Shown in pieces: positions 8,835-42,895 of a DNA stretch of 52,115 nucleotides. The stretch spans positions 1 through 52,115 of IMG/VR virus record IMGVR_UViG_3300028024_000185; one strand, written 5' to 3'. The DNA comes from a virus. The notes beneath the pieces were generated by a model. It saw only the letters and a list, made by a program, of their open reading frames with translations. It searched no databases and was not told where the DNA came from. Both the position numbers and the translations under genes were made by a program. Within the stretch, counting starts at the first letter, position 1. Each line of letters begins with the position of its first letter.

Positions 8835-10382
8835 TCAGAATGTGTAGCCGCTGCACTCGGCTCGTATAGCCACTGTTGCGCCGAGAGCTTTGTAATAGAT
8901 CGTCTGCGCAGTGATGATCGGCAGCCCGAAGAACGGCATCGCCGCTGCAAAATTGTCGAACGTAACGCCAGTTGCGGTTGATGCATTATTGCTGGCCTGT
9001 ACCTCGCCCGTCCCCGTGGCATCGGCAGCGAGCGCACAAAATGGGTTGGTCGTCGCCCCCGCTGGATTACCCAATATGCCGTGCATGGAAACGGCATTTG
9101 ATGGAATAGCCGAACTCACTGACAGACTGGTGAATGTCGTCGGCAACCCTGAGTTTCCGCTCACCAGCAATACCCGGGTGCCATGCCAGAACGTCCGGTC
9201 CCGCAGATAGGAGATCGGAACCTGACTACTGCCATTCGTTGGCAAAACGGCGATAAGCGCCGTCGCGATATAGCCGGAGGGGAGATTCGCACCGCTATAT
9301 ACCGATCCTGAGCTTGTTGCCGTGCTGCATGCGAATGCCGTCGTTGTGCCATCCGCCTTCACGGCGGCATAGACGGATATGAACCCGCTGGCCGGCGCCG
9401 AGCCGGTATCCATGCCGCCTGCACCAGTCGCCGCAAGGTTGACGGTTTTATTGAAACTGGCCAGGCGATAGACAGTGCCGCCAAGGGCTGTTTCGACAAT
9501 TATTTCATCGGCGGTGATGGTGAATGATGCACTGGCCGACGTCTGGCTCATCTTCAGATTTCGCACAGAACTGATGATCGACACGCCGCTCGAGGATGAG
9601 GCGCCGATCTGGCGAATATCATCGATAATCGAGCTTGGAATCGTCACTGCGGCAGCTGTCAGGCGAACGCGTGCCACTGGTATCTTCCCGCTCGGGACGG
9701 CTGGATCTGATGGCGATGCAGACTCTGTACCAGTGGCGACGCCAACTACGCCAGTGGTCTGGTCGATGTAAACGATGTCCCAGCGAGGGTTGGTCACAGG
9801 GGCCGTGATGGTCGTCGTATTCTGTGCCGCCACCTTCGTCAGGGCGGTGCCGCTGAGAATAGACCCAGCGGCGATCGCTACCGTCATGTTCGGCAGGATC
9901 TGCTGGGAGGGCGCAAAGTTCCCGAGGGATAGCAGCGCAAGATCTGGATTATCGGCCACATTGGCCCGGCCAATCTCGACCCAATCGGCTCCGTCGAGCC
10001 GCAAGGTCAGCTTCTTGGAGGTGTTGTCGAGGGCGTAATCCTGGCCGTCGGCGAGAATGATACGGCCTGAGCCAGCGATGCCACTCCGAACAATGGTGGC
10101 GCGGCCGGCATTGGCACATGATAGCGTCACGATGCGGCCGCTCGGGATGCCAGTTACCGAGATCGCCGTGAGGTCGTCCGTCGATGCCGCGGCCTCCGTA
10201 TCGACGTCATGGGCGGCCTGGGAAACGACCAGCGTACCGGCTGCGATCGTGACCGTGGATTTTGCGGCACCGCCAGGAAGCTCTTTCTCGGCCTGCAGGG
10301 TATCTTCCAGTGCCTGCTTCAGAATGCCCTGATTGCTGGCGCCGGAGATAACGCCAGCGGCCGGAGGTGTTGTCATTGTCAT
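8835..10382 (-). CDS. Tail fibre or receptor-binding protein
   Basis: A 515-residue protein, low in charge and rich in Ser, Thr, Ala, Gly and Ile, as for long beta-structured fibres. No enzymatic motif is seen. Its ATG overlaps the stop of the tail-tip gene in ATGA, and it is followed by a fibre-assembly-like gene. The N-terminal 120 residues probably attach to the tip and the C-terminal part binds the host surface, as is usual for such proteins. A metal or glycan ligand cannot be predicted. Confidence 0.75.
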   Translation of the reverse strand: MTMTTPPAAGVISGASNQGILKQALEDTLQAEKELPGGAAKSTVTIAAGTLVVSQAAHDVDTEAAASTDDLTAISVTGIPSGRIVTLSCANAGRATIVRSGIAGSGRIILADGQDYALDNTSKKLTLRLDGADWVEIGRANVADNPDLALLSLGNFAPSQQILPNMTVAIAAGSILSGTALTKVAAQNTTTITAPVTNPRWDIVYIDQTTGVVGVATGTESASPSDPAVPSGKIPVARVRLTAAAVTIPSSIIDDIRQIGASSSSGVSIISSVRNLKMSQTSASASFTITADEIIVETALGGTVYRLASFNKTVNLAATGAGGMDTGSAPASGFISVYAAVKADGTTTAFACSTATSSGSVYSGANLPSGYIATALIAVLPTNGSSQVPISYLRDRTFWHGTRVLLVSGNSGLPTTFTSLSVSSAIPSNAVSMHGILGNPAGATTNPFCALAADATGTGEVQASNNASTATGVTFDNFAAAMPFFGLPIITAQTIYYKALGATVAIRAECSGYTF

Positions 10383-13300
10383 GCTGACCTCTTGATGCCG
10401 AGGATCTCGGCGTAATCGATAAGACCTGTGGTGGGCTGGGCGGATCCGTTGAAGCAGCCGACGCGGGGCGCCGTGGCGCTGTAATCGAGCGTCCTGGCGT
10501 TCACCGCTGATCCGCCATCATCGTCGAGGCCGTAGCGGATCAGCTTGATCGAGCGGTAGGATTTGGTGATCGGAATGATTGCACCATCGATTCCGACGGC
10601 GATGTTGCGCACGATCTCGCTCTCGTCCGGCACGTCGAACAGCACCTCGAGCGCGTAAATCCGGCCGATCTCGATTCCGGCACTGGTGGTGACCTTGATC
10701 TGGTATTGCTGCCGAGTTGCATCGAGTGATGCCGGGAAGGGCGTGAACTCGCTTAGATCAGCCCAGGCCGGATCGGTGTCAGATGTCCAATAGGGCGCGC
10801 TGTCATCGGTCGACCAGGCCGCGGCATCCCCATTGGTGCGGTAAAGCACCTGCCAGGACCCGCCCGAGATCGAAGACGAGATCTTCATGGTGGATGGCAC
10901 GTCTTCCGACCCGGGCAGGATCGTCGCCGTATAGCTCATGGCCTGATAGCCGTTGCGCCAGGCCGGGTCATTGTCGTTCGCCGACCAGAACGGTGCGTTG
11001 TCGTTCGCCGACCAAGCGGCGCCGGCATTGTCGTTGGCGAGCAGTGACCCGCCGATCAGATGCCCGTTTTCAATAACGCCGGGGAAACCCTGAGCGGCCA
11101 GATCGACCGAGAAGACCAGGTTATCGACCAGGACATCGCCGAGATTGATCGTCGCATCGGCGAAACCATCGGAATAATGGCCGGCCCGATCCTTGGCCTT
11201 GACCATGACAACCCACGGGCCTGAGCCCAGATTGCTGATGTCCGCCTCGCAGATCGTGACGAAGCCATTCTGCAGCAGTTGGGCGTCGTCCCAGCGCCGT
11301 GTCGTGCCAGGACGCGCCCGTACCTCAAACCCAGCAAGATCGATCGGCGGATCTGGATAGAGCCAGTTCGCCTTTGAGCCATTGATGCGGAGAACAGTCG
11401 GGTCCGGCGGAGGCGTGTCGGTGCCGATGACCGTATAATTCAGTTCCGAGGTCCATTCGGAGGTCGCGCCATTGGCGGCGATGCTACGGATCAGCACATC
11501 ATAGGCCAATCCATCCTGGACCGGTGTGATATCGATACTAGGCGATGACGCGGCGACCCGTGGGATGAAGGTATAGTCGCCGGCGCCATCCGTTGGCCGG
11601 TATTTGGCCTCCAGCAAGGTCGCCGGGACATCTCCACCGGTCAGGGGCAGCAGGGTCACCCGAATCCGGAGCTGCAGCGAGCCGTCCTGGGCGATTGTCG
11701 TGACATTCTCATCCGACTGGACCGACAGAATGCGCGGCTGTGGCGGCCGGCGGGCGGCGATCGGGATAGCCGTGGTGATGCCGGCATCGAAAGCCGGGAT
11801 CGGCCCCTGGTCGGCGTCATGCACGGCCGGCGAGGCATCGATCAAGGTCAGCGTGGCGCCAAGATCGCTGTCAGGAGCGACGCTGTAGACCAGCATCTGG
11901 GCGGTTTCCAGACCGGTTTCACCGAAGCTCGCCAGATCATCCGGCGACGGAAGATTTGCCGCGGCGATCGGCAGTATGGGCGTCAGGATCGAGGTCTGTC
12001 CCGGTTCCGTCTGGATCGAAATGAGTTGGTGATCGCCCGTTCCCCGGCGGATCCGCAGCGCGTAGGTCTTGCCAGCCTCCATGATGAAGGTCTCGTCGAG
12101 GGTCAGCGCCGTCCCGCGGCCCTGCCCGTCCACCGTCACGGATTGGATCCGGCCCGAGCCAAGTCCGACCAGCATGACGTCATCAGCAACGACGACCATG
12201 TCGCCGCGCCGGCAGGCCAGGTATTCCGGGTCGACCGAGCGGGTATATTGGACCGGCCGGAGCTTGGCCACGGCCATGAAATACCGCGCATCGCGCCAGA
12301 TTTGGTTCTTTCGGGCAAGAAACGAGAGTGTCAGCGTCTCGAATTTGCTGGCATTCGTCTTGTCATAACCATCGGCATAGACATAGAGCTCGTCCTGCTG
12401 GTAGCCCTTCTCCTCGTTCCAGAACTGGATCTTGATGGCGTGGGGCTGCTCGGCGAAGGTCTTGGTCCATTGCCCACCCCGGCTGTTGCGCGGCGTGAAG
12501 TGCTGCATCGGCACGGTCTGGGGAACATCCCGGACGATCGAGAATTTGCCGTCGCGCCATCCCGGCGTGGCCCGGCCCGCCGCGGCGATATCCTGCAGCG
12601 CCTGGCCAACCGTGGATTGGTAATCGATGACGCCATCACAGCAATAGACCGCTGTACCGTCACTCGCGAGCTTCTCGCAGGCAATGGACCAGTCGAGGAA
12701 GTCCGGCAGATAGATCCGATCATCCGTGACGGCGCGCTTGTTGCCGCGGCCGCGCAACACCTCGAGATAGCACCAGGCCGGGTTCCGTGTCGGCTTCGGC
12801 GTCCAGGTATTGCCGTCCCAGACCGGCAGGACCGAGGTGCAGAGGCAGTTGAAATTGTCGACCACGCCATTGAGCTGGTCAGTTCCCTTGATCCGCAGTT
12901 CGACCATGGCGACGCCGCGGATCGTGACCGGATCTCCATATTGGATTGACCGGATCGCGGTCCAGACTGCATGGGTCGATTCGTTATCGCCGTCATCCTC
13001 ACTGATCCGCATGACGCGGACGTCATATTGTCCCCGCGCCGGCGGCTTGAACCGGAACGATCGGCGCACCGGTGAGGTCGAGTTGTCGATATAGGTCTGC
13101 TGCCCGAGATCGACCCAGGCATTCGCACTGGCGACGCTATACTGGAACTGGAAGACGGCATTCGAGGCGTGGCGATTGCCCTTCTTGTTGGTATGGAACA
13201 GACCGCGGTCGAAGGTCAGGTCCAGGCTGATCTCGTCGGTGTCGAGGTCCGTGGTCTGCAGCACCCAACCCGCGGCATGGGTAACATCGATGCTGATCGG

Positions 13301-38266: not shown

Positions 38267-38718
38267 CACTTGCTTGGCTGCCCCTTCGTCTGATCCAGCC
38301 CAAATCGCCTGAACCACCACATGACCGTCGTGTGATCGCAACCATGCAGCCGGGCGATTGCCGGATAGCTCATGCCCTTCTGTCTCATCCTCTGGAGCTC
38401 GGATGGGTCTGGATTATGGGCGCGGCCGCGGAAGGGCCGCTTGATCTCTGATGCGCCTTTCAACCCAACTTGGCGGACCCTTGGATGAGCCTCCGGGTTT
38501 GGCTTTTGGTGAATGACGGTCTTCTTGACCGGCGGCTTGATTGCCATCTGGACTGGTCTCCGATGAGCGAGCGCGGCGGCATCAGACGAAGACAGCGTGA
38601 CGCCTGGCACGGGTATGGCAATGGCTGTGGGGCAGCGCGTCACGCCGTGCTGCGCGATATATTCTGCGCAAGGATCTGTTTCGTGATCGATGCTGATATT
38701 CTGCGGGTGATCGGTCAT
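38266..38718 (-). CDS. HTH protein, replication or regulatory
   Basis: A 150-residue protein. The C-terminal 45 residues form a helix-turn-helix (PSELQRMRQKGMSYPAIARLHGCDHTTVMWWFRRFG). The N-terminal 80 residues are poorly structured. The same HTH type appears in the protein at 39658-40155 (RGMTLRQIAAQLRCDVSTVHGAM), so the operon carries two related DNA-binding modules. Start and stop both overlap neighbours. Confidence 0.65.
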   Translation of the reverse strand: MTDHPQNISIDHETDPCAEYIAQHGVTRCPTAIAIPVPGVTLSSSDAAALAHRRPVQMAIKPPVKKTVIHQKPNPEAHPRVRQVGLKGASEIKRPFRGRAHNPDPSELQRMRQKGMSYPAIARLHGCDHTTVMWWFRRFGLDQTKGQPSK

Positions 38719-39293
38719 GCTGCTACCCCGAACCGGCTAGTTTCGTTCCCCCACCTGTCAAATCCGGGATGCTGTGAGCGAGCGAACAGCTCGATGCGCG
38801 GACCCTGGAAAAGGCTGGCGATCTCATCGCGGATGAAGTCTGGCTTCCGGCTGTGTTCCCGCCTGGGCCCATAGAACACCCCGCGCGGCTTGGCACCCTT
38901 GATCGGCTCCGGCCGGCCGCTCTTGGCGATGATCAGGATCTCTGCGTCGCCGGTGACCTCGTAGCCCGAGCCGCGGGCTGTGCTGGTCGGATAGATGAAT
39001 ACGCCGTCCTCCCTGGGGTTGAGCTTCACCCAGATTCTGGAGGTGGAATAGCGGAAGCCCCAGGCCTTCATGACCTCGCGCGGCCCGAACGGCAGCAGCA
39101 GAATAGGGAACGTCGCCCACATCAGCAGCCGGCAGCCGTCGGGGTGAGCCAGGCTCTTCACCGGCAATTCAGCGATGTCCTTGATCTTCATGGTCGGGTA
39201 ATGGCGGGACGGATTCTTGTTCGGGCCGGCGGAGAATGCCCAGCACGGATCAGCGTAAATCACCCGGTAGTGCTGCTGCGGCAGTTCGTTCAT
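38715..39293 (-). CDS. MT-A70-like adenine methyltransferase
   Basis: A 192-residue protein with motif IV at YADPCWAF (about residues 14-21), a TMKIKDIAELPV segment and the later VFYGPRREHSRKPDFIRDEIASLF ... RIELFARSQHPGFDRWG. These are landmarks of MT-A70-type N6-adenine methyltransferases in phages. The usual DPPW reads DPCW here, a change at a core residue. It could methylate phage DNA to avoid host restriction or alter regulation. Both ends are ATGA-coupled. Confidence 0.8.
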   Translation of the reverse strand: MNELPQQHYRVIYADPCWAFSAGPNKNPSRHYPTMKIKDIAELPVKSLAHPDGCRLLMWATFPILLLPFGPREVMKAWGFRYSTSRIWVKLNPREDGVFIYPTSTARGSGYEVTGDAEILIIAKSGRPEPIKGAKPRGVFYGPRREHSRKPDFIRDEIASLFQGPRIELFARSQHPGFDRWGNETSRFGVAA

Positions 39294-41063: not shown

Positions 41064-41261
41064 CTATTTCAGAACTGCTATAATGCCAGCGCAGAGAGCC
41101 ACGATTGCCGTAACGACAGCGAGTGGAATCCATATCGGTGCCAGCACCCACCACCAGGACCAATCGATGTAGTTGGTTAACTTCAGCCCAATGAAGAGGA
41201 CGGTCAGCAAACCGCAAAAGCCGATGCCGCCGGATTTGGAGGTCGTAGTCTGTGCGCTCAT
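41064..41261 (-). CDS. Two-helix membrane protein (Fragile-X-F-like annotation family)
   Basis: A 65-residue protein with two hydrophobic helices (about 13-29 and 36-62) and an aromatic IDWSWWWV link. This matches a small family commonly named transmembrane Fragile-X-F protein in phage annotations; the name carries no function. The ATG overlaps the VRR-NUC stop in ATGA. Confidence 0.7.
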   Translation of the reverse strand: MSAQTTTSKSGGIGFCGLLTVLFIGLKLTNYIDWSWWWVLAPIWIPLAVVTAIVALCAGIIAVLK

Positions 41262-41617
41262 GCTGATGCCCTCGCTTTCAGTGGAAACTTCCAATAGGTG
41301 AGATGCCCGATCACCTCATCGAGTGACTTGGCGATGCCATAGAAGGCGCCCGCGTCGATCAGGTCGTTCATCATATCCCGCTGCTCTGGGCTCAACCGGC
41401 CGCGGTCCGTCTTCAATTCGATCAGATAGAGACGCTTCTGCCAGAAGATCAGCACGTCAGGGAAACCGGCTTTCAGGCCCATGGCCTTGCTGAGCCCGGC
41501 GACAGCCTTCGTCTTTCCCGGTACCGGATTGACGGCGGTCCAGACGGCATCGGCCGGCAGCGCCATGTCCAGGAACTGGGCCACGGTGATCTGTAGCTGT
41601 TGCTCGGGCCGGTTCAT
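41258..41617 (-). CDS. VRR-NUC domain nuclease
   Basis: A 119-residue protein. The single domain carries AVNPVPGKTKAVAGLSKAMGLKAGFPDVLIF and LYLIELKTDRGRLSPEQRDMMNDLIDAGAF, in which the Asp (PDVLI) and Glu-x-Lys (ELK) are the PD-(D/E)xK-type catalytic residues. Standalone VRR-NUC proteins occur in many phages and resolve branched DNA or trim ends. ATGA overlaps couple it to both neighbours. Confidence 0.85.
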   Translation of the reverse strand: MNRPEQQLQITVAQFLDMALPADAVWTAVNPVPGKTKAVAGLSKAMGLKAGFPDVLIFWQKRLYLIELKTDRGRLSPEQRDMMNDLIDAGAFYGIAKSLDEVIGHLTYWKFPLKARASA

Positions 41618-42063
41618 GCGCCATATCTCCGGTCCATGATCGATTGGCCGGTGATGTCGAGCGCGTGCCCACCCGCAAGTATTTCATAGACTATGCGCTG
41701 GAGATCTGCCGCAAAATCAAACCACTCACGGTTCACGCGCCAAGCTCGAAATGCCAGGTGTAAATAGCGCTCGGTTATCGTAGTGCCTGATATGCACCCA
41801 ATGAGCACTAGCTTGGCTGGCGAGCTGCACTCCAGTTGACGGCGGCGGCGGCCGACATTGGTAGAAACACCGATCTTTATACGTTGGAGACCGACCGCCT
41901 CAATGAAATAGACTTTCGATATTGAGGTCTCTGCGTCAGCTATACGGAACCAACGCGAGATCGCCGGGGCTCTGTCCAAATACGATAGATCTGTGCGCCT
42001 AAGCGTGTCCGCCAATACCCCCTTCTCCGTCAAATATATTTGGTCTATGGCATTAGTCTGCAT
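41614..42063 (-). CDS. GIY-YIG / T5orf172-type protein with a C-terminal tag
   Basis: A 149-residue protein. The VYFIEAVGLQRIKIGVSTNVGRRRRQLECSSPAKLVLIGCI segment and YLHLAFRAWRVNREWFDF fit the T5orf172 subgroup of GIY-YIG nucleases. The ATG overlaps the ParB-like gene end by 11 bases. The last 15 residues contain ITGQSIMDRRY, also present at the end of the ParB-like protein. It may be a homing-type or regulatory nuclease. Confidence 0.7.
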   Translation of the reverse strand: MQTNAIDQIYLTEKGVLADTLRRTDLSYLDRAPAISRWFRIADAETSISKVYFIEAVGLQRIKIGVSTNVGRRRRQLECSSPAKLVLIGCISGTTITERYLHLAFRAWRVNREWFDFAADLQRIVYEILAGGHALDITGQSIMDRRYGA

Positions 42064-42895
42064 AGCGTCGATCCATAATTGATTGCCCGGTGATGTTGGT
42101 GAGTTCGGTGGCAATGTCGGCAGCCTTCTTGGCCGCGTAGAGATTGGCCTTCAGACCATCCCACAACTCAGCAGGCACATGCTCGGATAGGACCTCCGCA
42201 ACCTCGCGCACCGCGCGCTTCTGCAGGTCGGAGTCCAGTTTCACGCGGTCGGTGACGCGCTTCTCGGCCATGGTGCGGATGATTGAGGCTTGCTGCGCCG
42301 GCTCGGCCTTGGCTGCCTCAAGAAGTGCAGTGCGGTTATCATCCAGGCCGACTTCTTTGGCGGCTTCCTTGGCCTCAGGCGTCAGTGAGGCATTTGTTCT
42401 GGCGCGCTGAACGTCCCGACGATCGAGACCAAGCTCCTTCGTCGCGGCTCTGACACCGGCTTCCTTCGGCTGTTTACCGCCAGGTGGTGCAGATTGCGCC
42501 ACCTTTTGTTGTTCAGCGAGATCGACCCAGCGGGCGATATGTTCGTCGCGCTCAAGGGCCGTTAGTTCGGCACGGTGCAGGTTCTCAGCGATCTCCCAGA
42601 GTTCCGCGGCGACAGCATCGTCACCGATATCGATGCAGGGCGCGTCCTCGATTCCGAGCAGCTTCAGCGCTGCCAGGCGGTGAGCGCCGGCGACGAGAAC
42701 CGGAACATCCTCCTCCGTGACGCCGTCGATCTCCATCTTGGCCACGGTGCGGATCGTGATCGGGGTCCGAAGGCCTAGTTTCTGGATGGAATCCGCCAGC
42801 GATTGCACGCGCGAGGGGTCGATGTGTGAGCGAAGACGCTTGGCAACCACGATATTACCAGCTGCTATTGACCGGACTGGTGAAAGCTCACTCAT
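42053..42895 (-). CDS. ParB-like protein
   Basis: A 280-residue protein. The ParB N-terminal domain contains RSHIDPSRVQSLADSIQKLGLRTPI, LVAGAHRLAALKLLGI (GAHR for the usual GEHR) and EIAENLHRAELTALERDEHI. A DNA-binding helical part follows (RAATKELGLDRRDVQRA). No ParA gene is nearby, so a phage regulator or nuclease/CTPase-type ParB is more likely than a partition system. The C-terminus ends with the tag ITGQSIMDRRYAD. Confidence 0.85.
   Translation of the reverse strand: MSELSPVRSIAAGNIVVAKRLRSHIDPSRVQSLADSIQKLGLRTPITIRTVAKMEIDGVTEEDVPVLVAGAHRLAALKLLGIEDAPCIDIGDDAVAAELWEIAENLHRAELTALERDEHIARWVDLAEQQKVAQSAPPGGKQPKEAGVRAATKELGLDRRDVQRARTNASLTPEAKEAAKEVGLDDNRTALLEAAKAEPAQQASIIRTMAEKRVTDRVKLDSDLQKRAVREVAEVLSEHVPAELWDGLKANLYAAKKAADIATELTNITGQSIMDRRYAD

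Follow-up and report, generated by a model that had tools for sequence, protein, structure and literature searches.

The replacement of a useful gene's 3' end by a parasitic nuclease gene has so far been described in yeasts and in fungal mitochondria (PMC7282813, PMC3630166). The WHO elements of Torulaspora and Lachancea yeasts have been ranked as a third structural class; they home into FBA1, whose 3' end they replace, and leave the old end downstream, where it acts as homology (PMC7282813). In fungal mitochondria, mORFs are described in atp6, atp9, cox2 and nad3 of Glomus (PMC3630166, which also cites one in atp6 of Allomyces). In this article, we will focus on a phage locus in which a GIY-YIG nuclease gene immediately follows a parB-like gene and has the same last residues. 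It comes from the virus record IMGVR_UViG_3300028024_000185 of IMG/VR, and the whole stretch analysed, of 52,115 bases, is called the window below. A mobile GIY-YIG nuclease gene has probably replaced the 3' end of its host parB here and kept the displaced end.

Such a phage element would resemble the WHO elements in having an endonuclease gene directly downstream of a host gene whose 3' end is replaced at each insertion, a displaced 3' fragment downstream of the nuclease, and host-gene ends with discordant histories. The WHO elements, however, encode intein-zinc-finger enzymes, they sit in yeast nuclear genes, and their cutting has been demonstrated (PMC7282813), whereas the phage element would have a GIY-YIG enzyme, a parB host and a displaced fragment that is translated as the C-terminus of the nuclease. 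With the mORFs it would share a mobile endonuclease ORF that imports a C-terminal coding region of foreign origin and moves the native one downstream; moreover, a displaced atp6 end differs from that of a close relative by synonymous changes only, and the atp9 case involves a GIY-YIG enzyme. The mORFs differ in being mitochondrial, and the available part of that source does not say that the displaced native end belongs to the nuclease protein (PMC3630166).

The free-standing homing genes of T4, Seg and Mob, are likewise selfish GIY-YIG genes lying between conserved phage genes, and double-strand-break repair spreads them while co-converting the sequence that flanks them; they are, however, intergenic, their cuts fall at distances of hundreds of bases or more, and we found no case, in the accessible part of that review, of a neighbour's coding 3' end being exchanged and the old one kept (PMC2988022). 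The T5orf172 homing genes and Odn of phage ICP1 belong to the same nuclease domain family as the gene studied here, are variably present, lie near essential genes and exchange domains with other genes (PMC10448857, PMC8263062). The T5orf172 homing genes usually carry zinc-finger DNA-binding domains (PMC10448857, in which ParB has no occurrence), whereas the small nucleases of the phage element are without a recognised one, a point that counts against their being homing genes. A borrowed RepA domain helps to target Odn (PMC8263062) and, by analogy, the tail of the phage nuclease might also help targeting. Our search of the literature, in which subscription papers were sparsely covered, found neither a homing element combining GIY-YIG and parB nor a WHO-like element in a phage.

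The parB locus of the window

The features of the locus are the following:
42053-42895, minus strand: parB-like gene of 280 aa, the proposed host of the element
42059-42238, minus strand: C-terminal domain of ParB, tail type B, 60 residues (profile A4, E 3.9e-36 in the window record)
42053-42094, minus strand: parB 3' end ITGQSIMDRRYAD and stop, a copy with unusual codons that would have arrived with the nuclease gene
42053-42063, minus strand: overlap of parB end and GIY-YIG start, TATGCAGACTAA, read from the sequence
41614-42063, minus strand: GIY-YIG nuclease gene, T5orf172/MUG113 family by Pfam (149 aa), ATG start at 42063
41701-41877, minus strand: MUG113/GIY-YIG domain by Pfam, residues 63-121
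41614-41655, minus strand: GIY-YIG tail ITGQSIMDRRYGA and stop, the putative displaced original parB 3' end
41258-41617, minus strand: VRR-NUC nuclease gene, next after GIY-YIG (Pfam VRR_NUC, 38.4 bits)

The three genes stand in series, and every start overlaps the preceding stop. The GIY-YIG start overlaps the final 11 bases of parB, and the GIY-YIG stop and the VRR-NUC start overlap as ATGA, in the way that the parB ends of two relatives (loci L022 and L082) overlap their next gene. The GIY-YIG gene had been recognised in a preliminary description of this DNA and is indeed present, but the start near 42110 given there is a mechanical open-reading-frame start (TTG), the real one being the ATG at 42063.

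The ParB-like protein matches a ParB-like partition protein in PHROG (E 1e-21), it scores 19.4 bits with Pfam ParB_N, under the cut-off of 26.3, and its AlphaFold model resembles Noc, ParB, KorB and Spo0J structures (best E 5e-8). This protein and an MT-A70 methyltransferase (38715-39293), which are encoded by separate genes about 3 kb apart, match the two halves of PHROG 21315 (10-165 and 234-408 of 415), and single proteins of 459-462 aa in L123, L124 and L127 resemble both kinds.

The nuclease exceeds the Pfam cut-offs of both MUG113 (42.7 bits, cut-off 22.3) and T5orf172 (30.1 bits, cut-off 20). Residues Y52, K63-I64-G65, R73, E98 and H102, which from general knowledge of GIY-YIG enzymes we take to be of catalytic type, are invariant in an alignment of four relatives. 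The GIY-YIG core is predicted confidently as a full fold (residues 47-131), and the tail is predicted to be disordered (pLDDT below 50). Judged by its sequence, the gene is a member of the T5orf172/MUG113 branch of GIY-YIG nucleases, with a putative DNA-cutting activity. No further Pfam or PHROG domain was found on it, hence none recognised as DNA-binding, and its N-terminal 46 residues, like its tail, have low predicted confidence. A fold search returned nothing significant, the GIY-YIG structures UPF0213, Slx1 and I-TevI appearing at E 0.4-5. IMG/VR contained no close relatives of this nuclease, and a four-sequence profile recovered just three more GIY-YIG genes, all without tails.

The ParB-like protein ends in NITGQSIMDRRYAD and the adjacent GIY-YIG protein in DITGQSIMDRRYGA, both having ITGQSIMDRRY as their C-terminal peptide. 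It had been noticed beforehand that these identical C-termini are encoded by DNA with silent changes only, which proves exact: the 33 bases of the 11 codons in common differ at 7 positions, every one of them silent (GGG/GGC, TCA/TCG, ATT/ATC, GAT/GAC, CGA/CGG and CGC/AGA, the last with two). The probability that 7 random substitutions would all be silent is about 5e-6. When IMG/VR was scanned for exact matches, the peptide turned up in a single further virus, represented by two records (L001 and L002) which are copies of one virus within the compared stretch. The relaxed nine-residue pattern GQ[ST][IV]MDRRY, scanned in IMG/VR and 84,980 bacterial and archaeal genomes, added matches to unrelated proteins only, in about the number estimated for chance. 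As these scans returned L001/L002 plus unrelated proteins only, the peptide was rejected as a common phage tag.

Tail types of the phage ParB family

In a family of phage ParBs, the repeated peptide tail forms the conserved C-terminus, and within this family we distinguish two tail types. The type B domain, which the window's ParB carries, also ends the ParBs of L001, L022, L025 and L005, and many related phage ParBs have a type A end (AWNRA..EAR..FL..ID.PVFDRxRAA); both types close with a similar short motif. The N-terminal half of the L001 ParB is quite unlike that of the window, and its last 50-60 residues are homologous. Among the GenBank phages searched for the tail, the single match lay in the ParB of Microcystis phage Mvi-Yong1342-1, which has a type A domain and the end APVMDQRYA.

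When the open reading frames of 128 loci were searched with profiles of the two types (A3 and A4), the matches were ParBs, GIY-YIG proteins whose start overlaps the parB stop and, as one spurious internal match, a protein of L047. In searches of whole virus records with each profile, the clear matches were ParB and, immediately behind it, the GIY-YIG gene, and the tail of the window's nuclease is matched by a ParB tail profile at E 5e-5. Searched against 385 whole genomes of one class (around a Rhodospirillaceae bin), each profile gave one weak match, that of A3 being internal to a protein.

A short flexible motif, [PQSV]x?[VI][MF]D.., ends otherwise different ParB tails (L001, L005, L022, L045, L068, L089 and L050), and it may be viewed as a candidate partner-binding peptide of this family.

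Nuclease genes behind parB in related viruses

A GIY-YIG gene that overlaps the parB stop and carries a parB-type 3' end is found in three lineages (the window, L001 and L090/L091), with start/stop overlaps in each, and no such nuclease gene follows parB in the other ParB loci examined. In L001, ParB ends in ITGQSIMDRRYA and the GIY-YIG protein behind it in SAWNMADREAREDFLAQIDVSVFDRTSAGRAA, a type A tail. In L090 and L091, ParB ends in EEDRAWFRDWIDTPIMDSRYD and the GIY-YIG protein behind it in AREMALEQMDGPVMDNCRAG, followed by AD in L091. In L022, ParB has a type B tail and no GIY-YIG gene stands behind parB. The nuclease tail and the ParB tail of an adjoining pair need not match.

Five other GIY-YIG groups occur in these loci, none adjoining parB and none with the tail, so that the tail is found in 3/3 of the parB-adjacent lineages vs 0/5 of the non-adjacent groups (Fisher p about 0.02). 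Downstream of the nuclease in L001, a DNA methyltransferase (9482-10570 of that locus) has an odd cysteine/glycine run, DCCCCCCCCCGGGGPRP, in its reading frame, which may reflect repetitive sequence or faulty assembly.

These relatives bear on the preliminary proposal that the peptide is a docking or degradation tag shared by the two neighbours. As a docking peptide, a flexible C-terminus would bind a common partner, and selection would keep its copies on ParB and nuclease so that both join one complex. The different ParB tail types do share a similar end motif (ITGQSIMDRRYA, IDAPVMDQRYA, LTGVSVFDNTSAGRG, SAGVSIMDAA), the peptide is predicted to be flexible in both ParB and the nuclease, and a borrowed tail could position nucleases that have no recognised DNA-binding domain. 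In addition, the nuclease genes of L090 and L091 are under purifying selection, with 13 silent and 0 replacement differences in the core and 6 and 0 in the tail. However, in L001 and in L090/L091 the neighbours bear different tails, GIY-YIG genes away from parB never bear one, and 15 T5orf172-type genes of GenBank phages, in 25 comparisons with their neighbours, showed no tail sharing beyond chance (best p 0.02). Docking would also leave unexplained the sharp cassette edges and chimeric ParBs described below, and we regard it as decidedly improbable.

A tag specific to the pair is refuted by the differing tails of the L001 neighbours and by the L022 ParB tail with no GIY-YIG protein behind it; relatives with the tag missing or altered in one partner had been named beforehand as the observation that would speak against it. 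A weaker form survives: the adopted nuclease tail may still do something, given that all 6 of its changes between L090 and L091 are silent. The silent-only differences, for their part, need no selection on the nuclease tail, because both copies would have spent time as selected parB ends. The same 15 GenBank loci do not support the broader idea that T5orf172 genes take copies of their neighbours' ends, which was rejected; since they lack the pattern, it appears tied to parB in these data.

The original end of parB

In a set of 77 ParBs, each body was compared with all the rest, and the tail of the nearest body was scored. The alignment scores of the nuclease tail with the tail of the nearest-body ParB were 93 (L001), 100 (L090) and 104 (L091), and those of ParB's own tail were 20, 62 and 55, respectively. 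Because the nearest bodies carry the nuclease's kind of tail, the parB ends of L001, L090 and L091 are foreign and the nuclease tails are the displaced originals. The downstream genes agree with this reading of the nuclease tail in L090 and L091. Indeed, the gene after the nuclease in L091 has homologues that directly follow parB in the nuclease-free L099 and L050, and the one after the nuclease in L090 (with about 130 bases between the two) has homologues that directly follow parB in the nuclease-free L045 and L082.

L090 and L091 share a near-identical cassette made of the parB tail, the nuclease and its tail. At the protein level they are 98.5% identical in the nuclease, 82% in ParB and 55% upstream, and their next genes are unrelated. 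Beginning shortly before the parB tail and running through the nuclease into most of its tail, their DNA is 85-100% identical; at the nuclease stop codon the identity drops to about 40%, so that the right edge of the cassette matches the end of the tail copy. The N-terminal parts of the two parB genes (L090:3012-3290 vs L091:3048-3330) are about 97% identical and the middle parts about 50%; because of that N-terminal part, the cassette is not the sole exchanged segment and the region is mosaic.

The mosaic parB segments beyond the cassette are in keeping with ordinary recombination in a variable early region, where the conserved tail would serve as short homology and the nuclease would have another job, such as the exclusion of rival phages. 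ICP1 Odn offers a parallel, being a T5orf172 chimera with a borrowed replication-protein domain that attacks a satellite (PMC8263062). Yet one gene family at one insertion point in three lineages is what homing predicts, not chance shuffling, and the parB end on the nuclease's left is foreign wherever it can be judged (L001, L090 and L091). We thus hold ordinary recombination to be unlikely. Replacement of the parB end by a mobile nuclease gene accords with the suggestion, made beforehand, that the peptide marks a homing gene which retained the end of its neighbour, and the relatives support this well.

The two copies in the window

In the window both tails are of type B, and the comparison of ParB bodies does not discriminate between them. 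Over 10 codons, the DNA of the nuclease tail is nearer to each of the four other type B parB ends (5, 6, 7 and 10 differences) than parB's own end is (9, 11, 13 and 15 differences). The block TCG ATC ATG GAC, which is common to all other type B parB ends, is kept in the nuclease's copy, and the ParB end itself reads TCA ATT ATG GAT CGA CGC. The GC content of the parB 3' end is 0.45, in a dip that begins in the last codons of parB and extends into the nuclease gene, over its 5' part. The L001 nuclease core, too, is lower in GC (0.51) than the ends that flank it (0.64-0.65). This points to an arrival of the window ParB's end together with the nuclease, although codon preference could explain part of the pattern in a tail as short as 42 bases.

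A local duplication of the parB 3' end, fused to an older GIY-YIG neighbour and followed by silent divergence, would equally yield two copies of the same tail type with identical peptides. However, the nuclease copy is nearer to the parB ends of L001 and L022 (5 and 6 differences) than to the copy next door (7), the two tails of L001 are of different types, and the genes that follow the nuclease correspond to those that follow parB in relatives without it, which leaves this origin very little probability. The earlier remark that the copies are not a fresh duplication holds, as they look like the ends of two different parB lineages.

Under replacement by a mobile nuclease gene, the peptides are identical in the window because the incoming and the resident parB apparently each had an end of type B. 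A nuclease-free relative whose parB stands immediately ahead of this VRR-NUC gene did not turn up, and tblastn of VRR-NUC in GenBank phages gave distant relatives only. As no such empty site was found, both tails are of type B and the bodies do not discriminate, we infer the window's history from the other lineages; in the window itself, it is the tail DNA that is suggestive of a displaced native 3' fragment.

A proposed homing element in parB

The mobile unit would consist of the nuclease gene with, ahead of it, a substitute for the 3' end of parB. When the unit arrives, this new end would join the resident parB body, so that ParB would stay complete, and the original 3' end of the resident would be shoved downstream, in frame, to become the C-terminus of the nuclease, retaining its short overlap with the next gene. 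We infer that the nuclease would cut a nuclease-free parB near its 3' end, that repair would find homology in the parB body on the left and in the tail copy on the right, that the altered substitute end would resist further cutting, and that the element would in this way be over-inherited. What the sequences themselves show is the architecture of the locus, the chimeric ParBs at three other loci, the cassette shared by two divergent phages and the matching downstream genes.

Because it has the same structure, and because T5orf172 genes have been described as phage homing genes, we consider this a probable phage element of the WHO and mORF kind. A more elaborate version, in which the silently altered parB patch is the resistant one and the tail acts both as right-hand homology and as a peptide that steers the nuclease to ParB's partner or target DNA, can be entertained but is rather doubtful.

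Implications

This replacement would explain a puzzling pattern, that of an identical peptide encoded by silently different DNA on unrelated neighbours, and the pattern could be used to find more such elements. It also calls for caution, as a C-terminal peptide in common need not imply a common function. If the proposal is true, the phage case was apparently arrived at separately, with a GIY-YIG enzyme, and phages would provide a fast test system for homing elements that swap 3' ends. The exchange of a host gene's end would then be a general solution for selfish nuclease genes that live in useful genes without introns or inteins.
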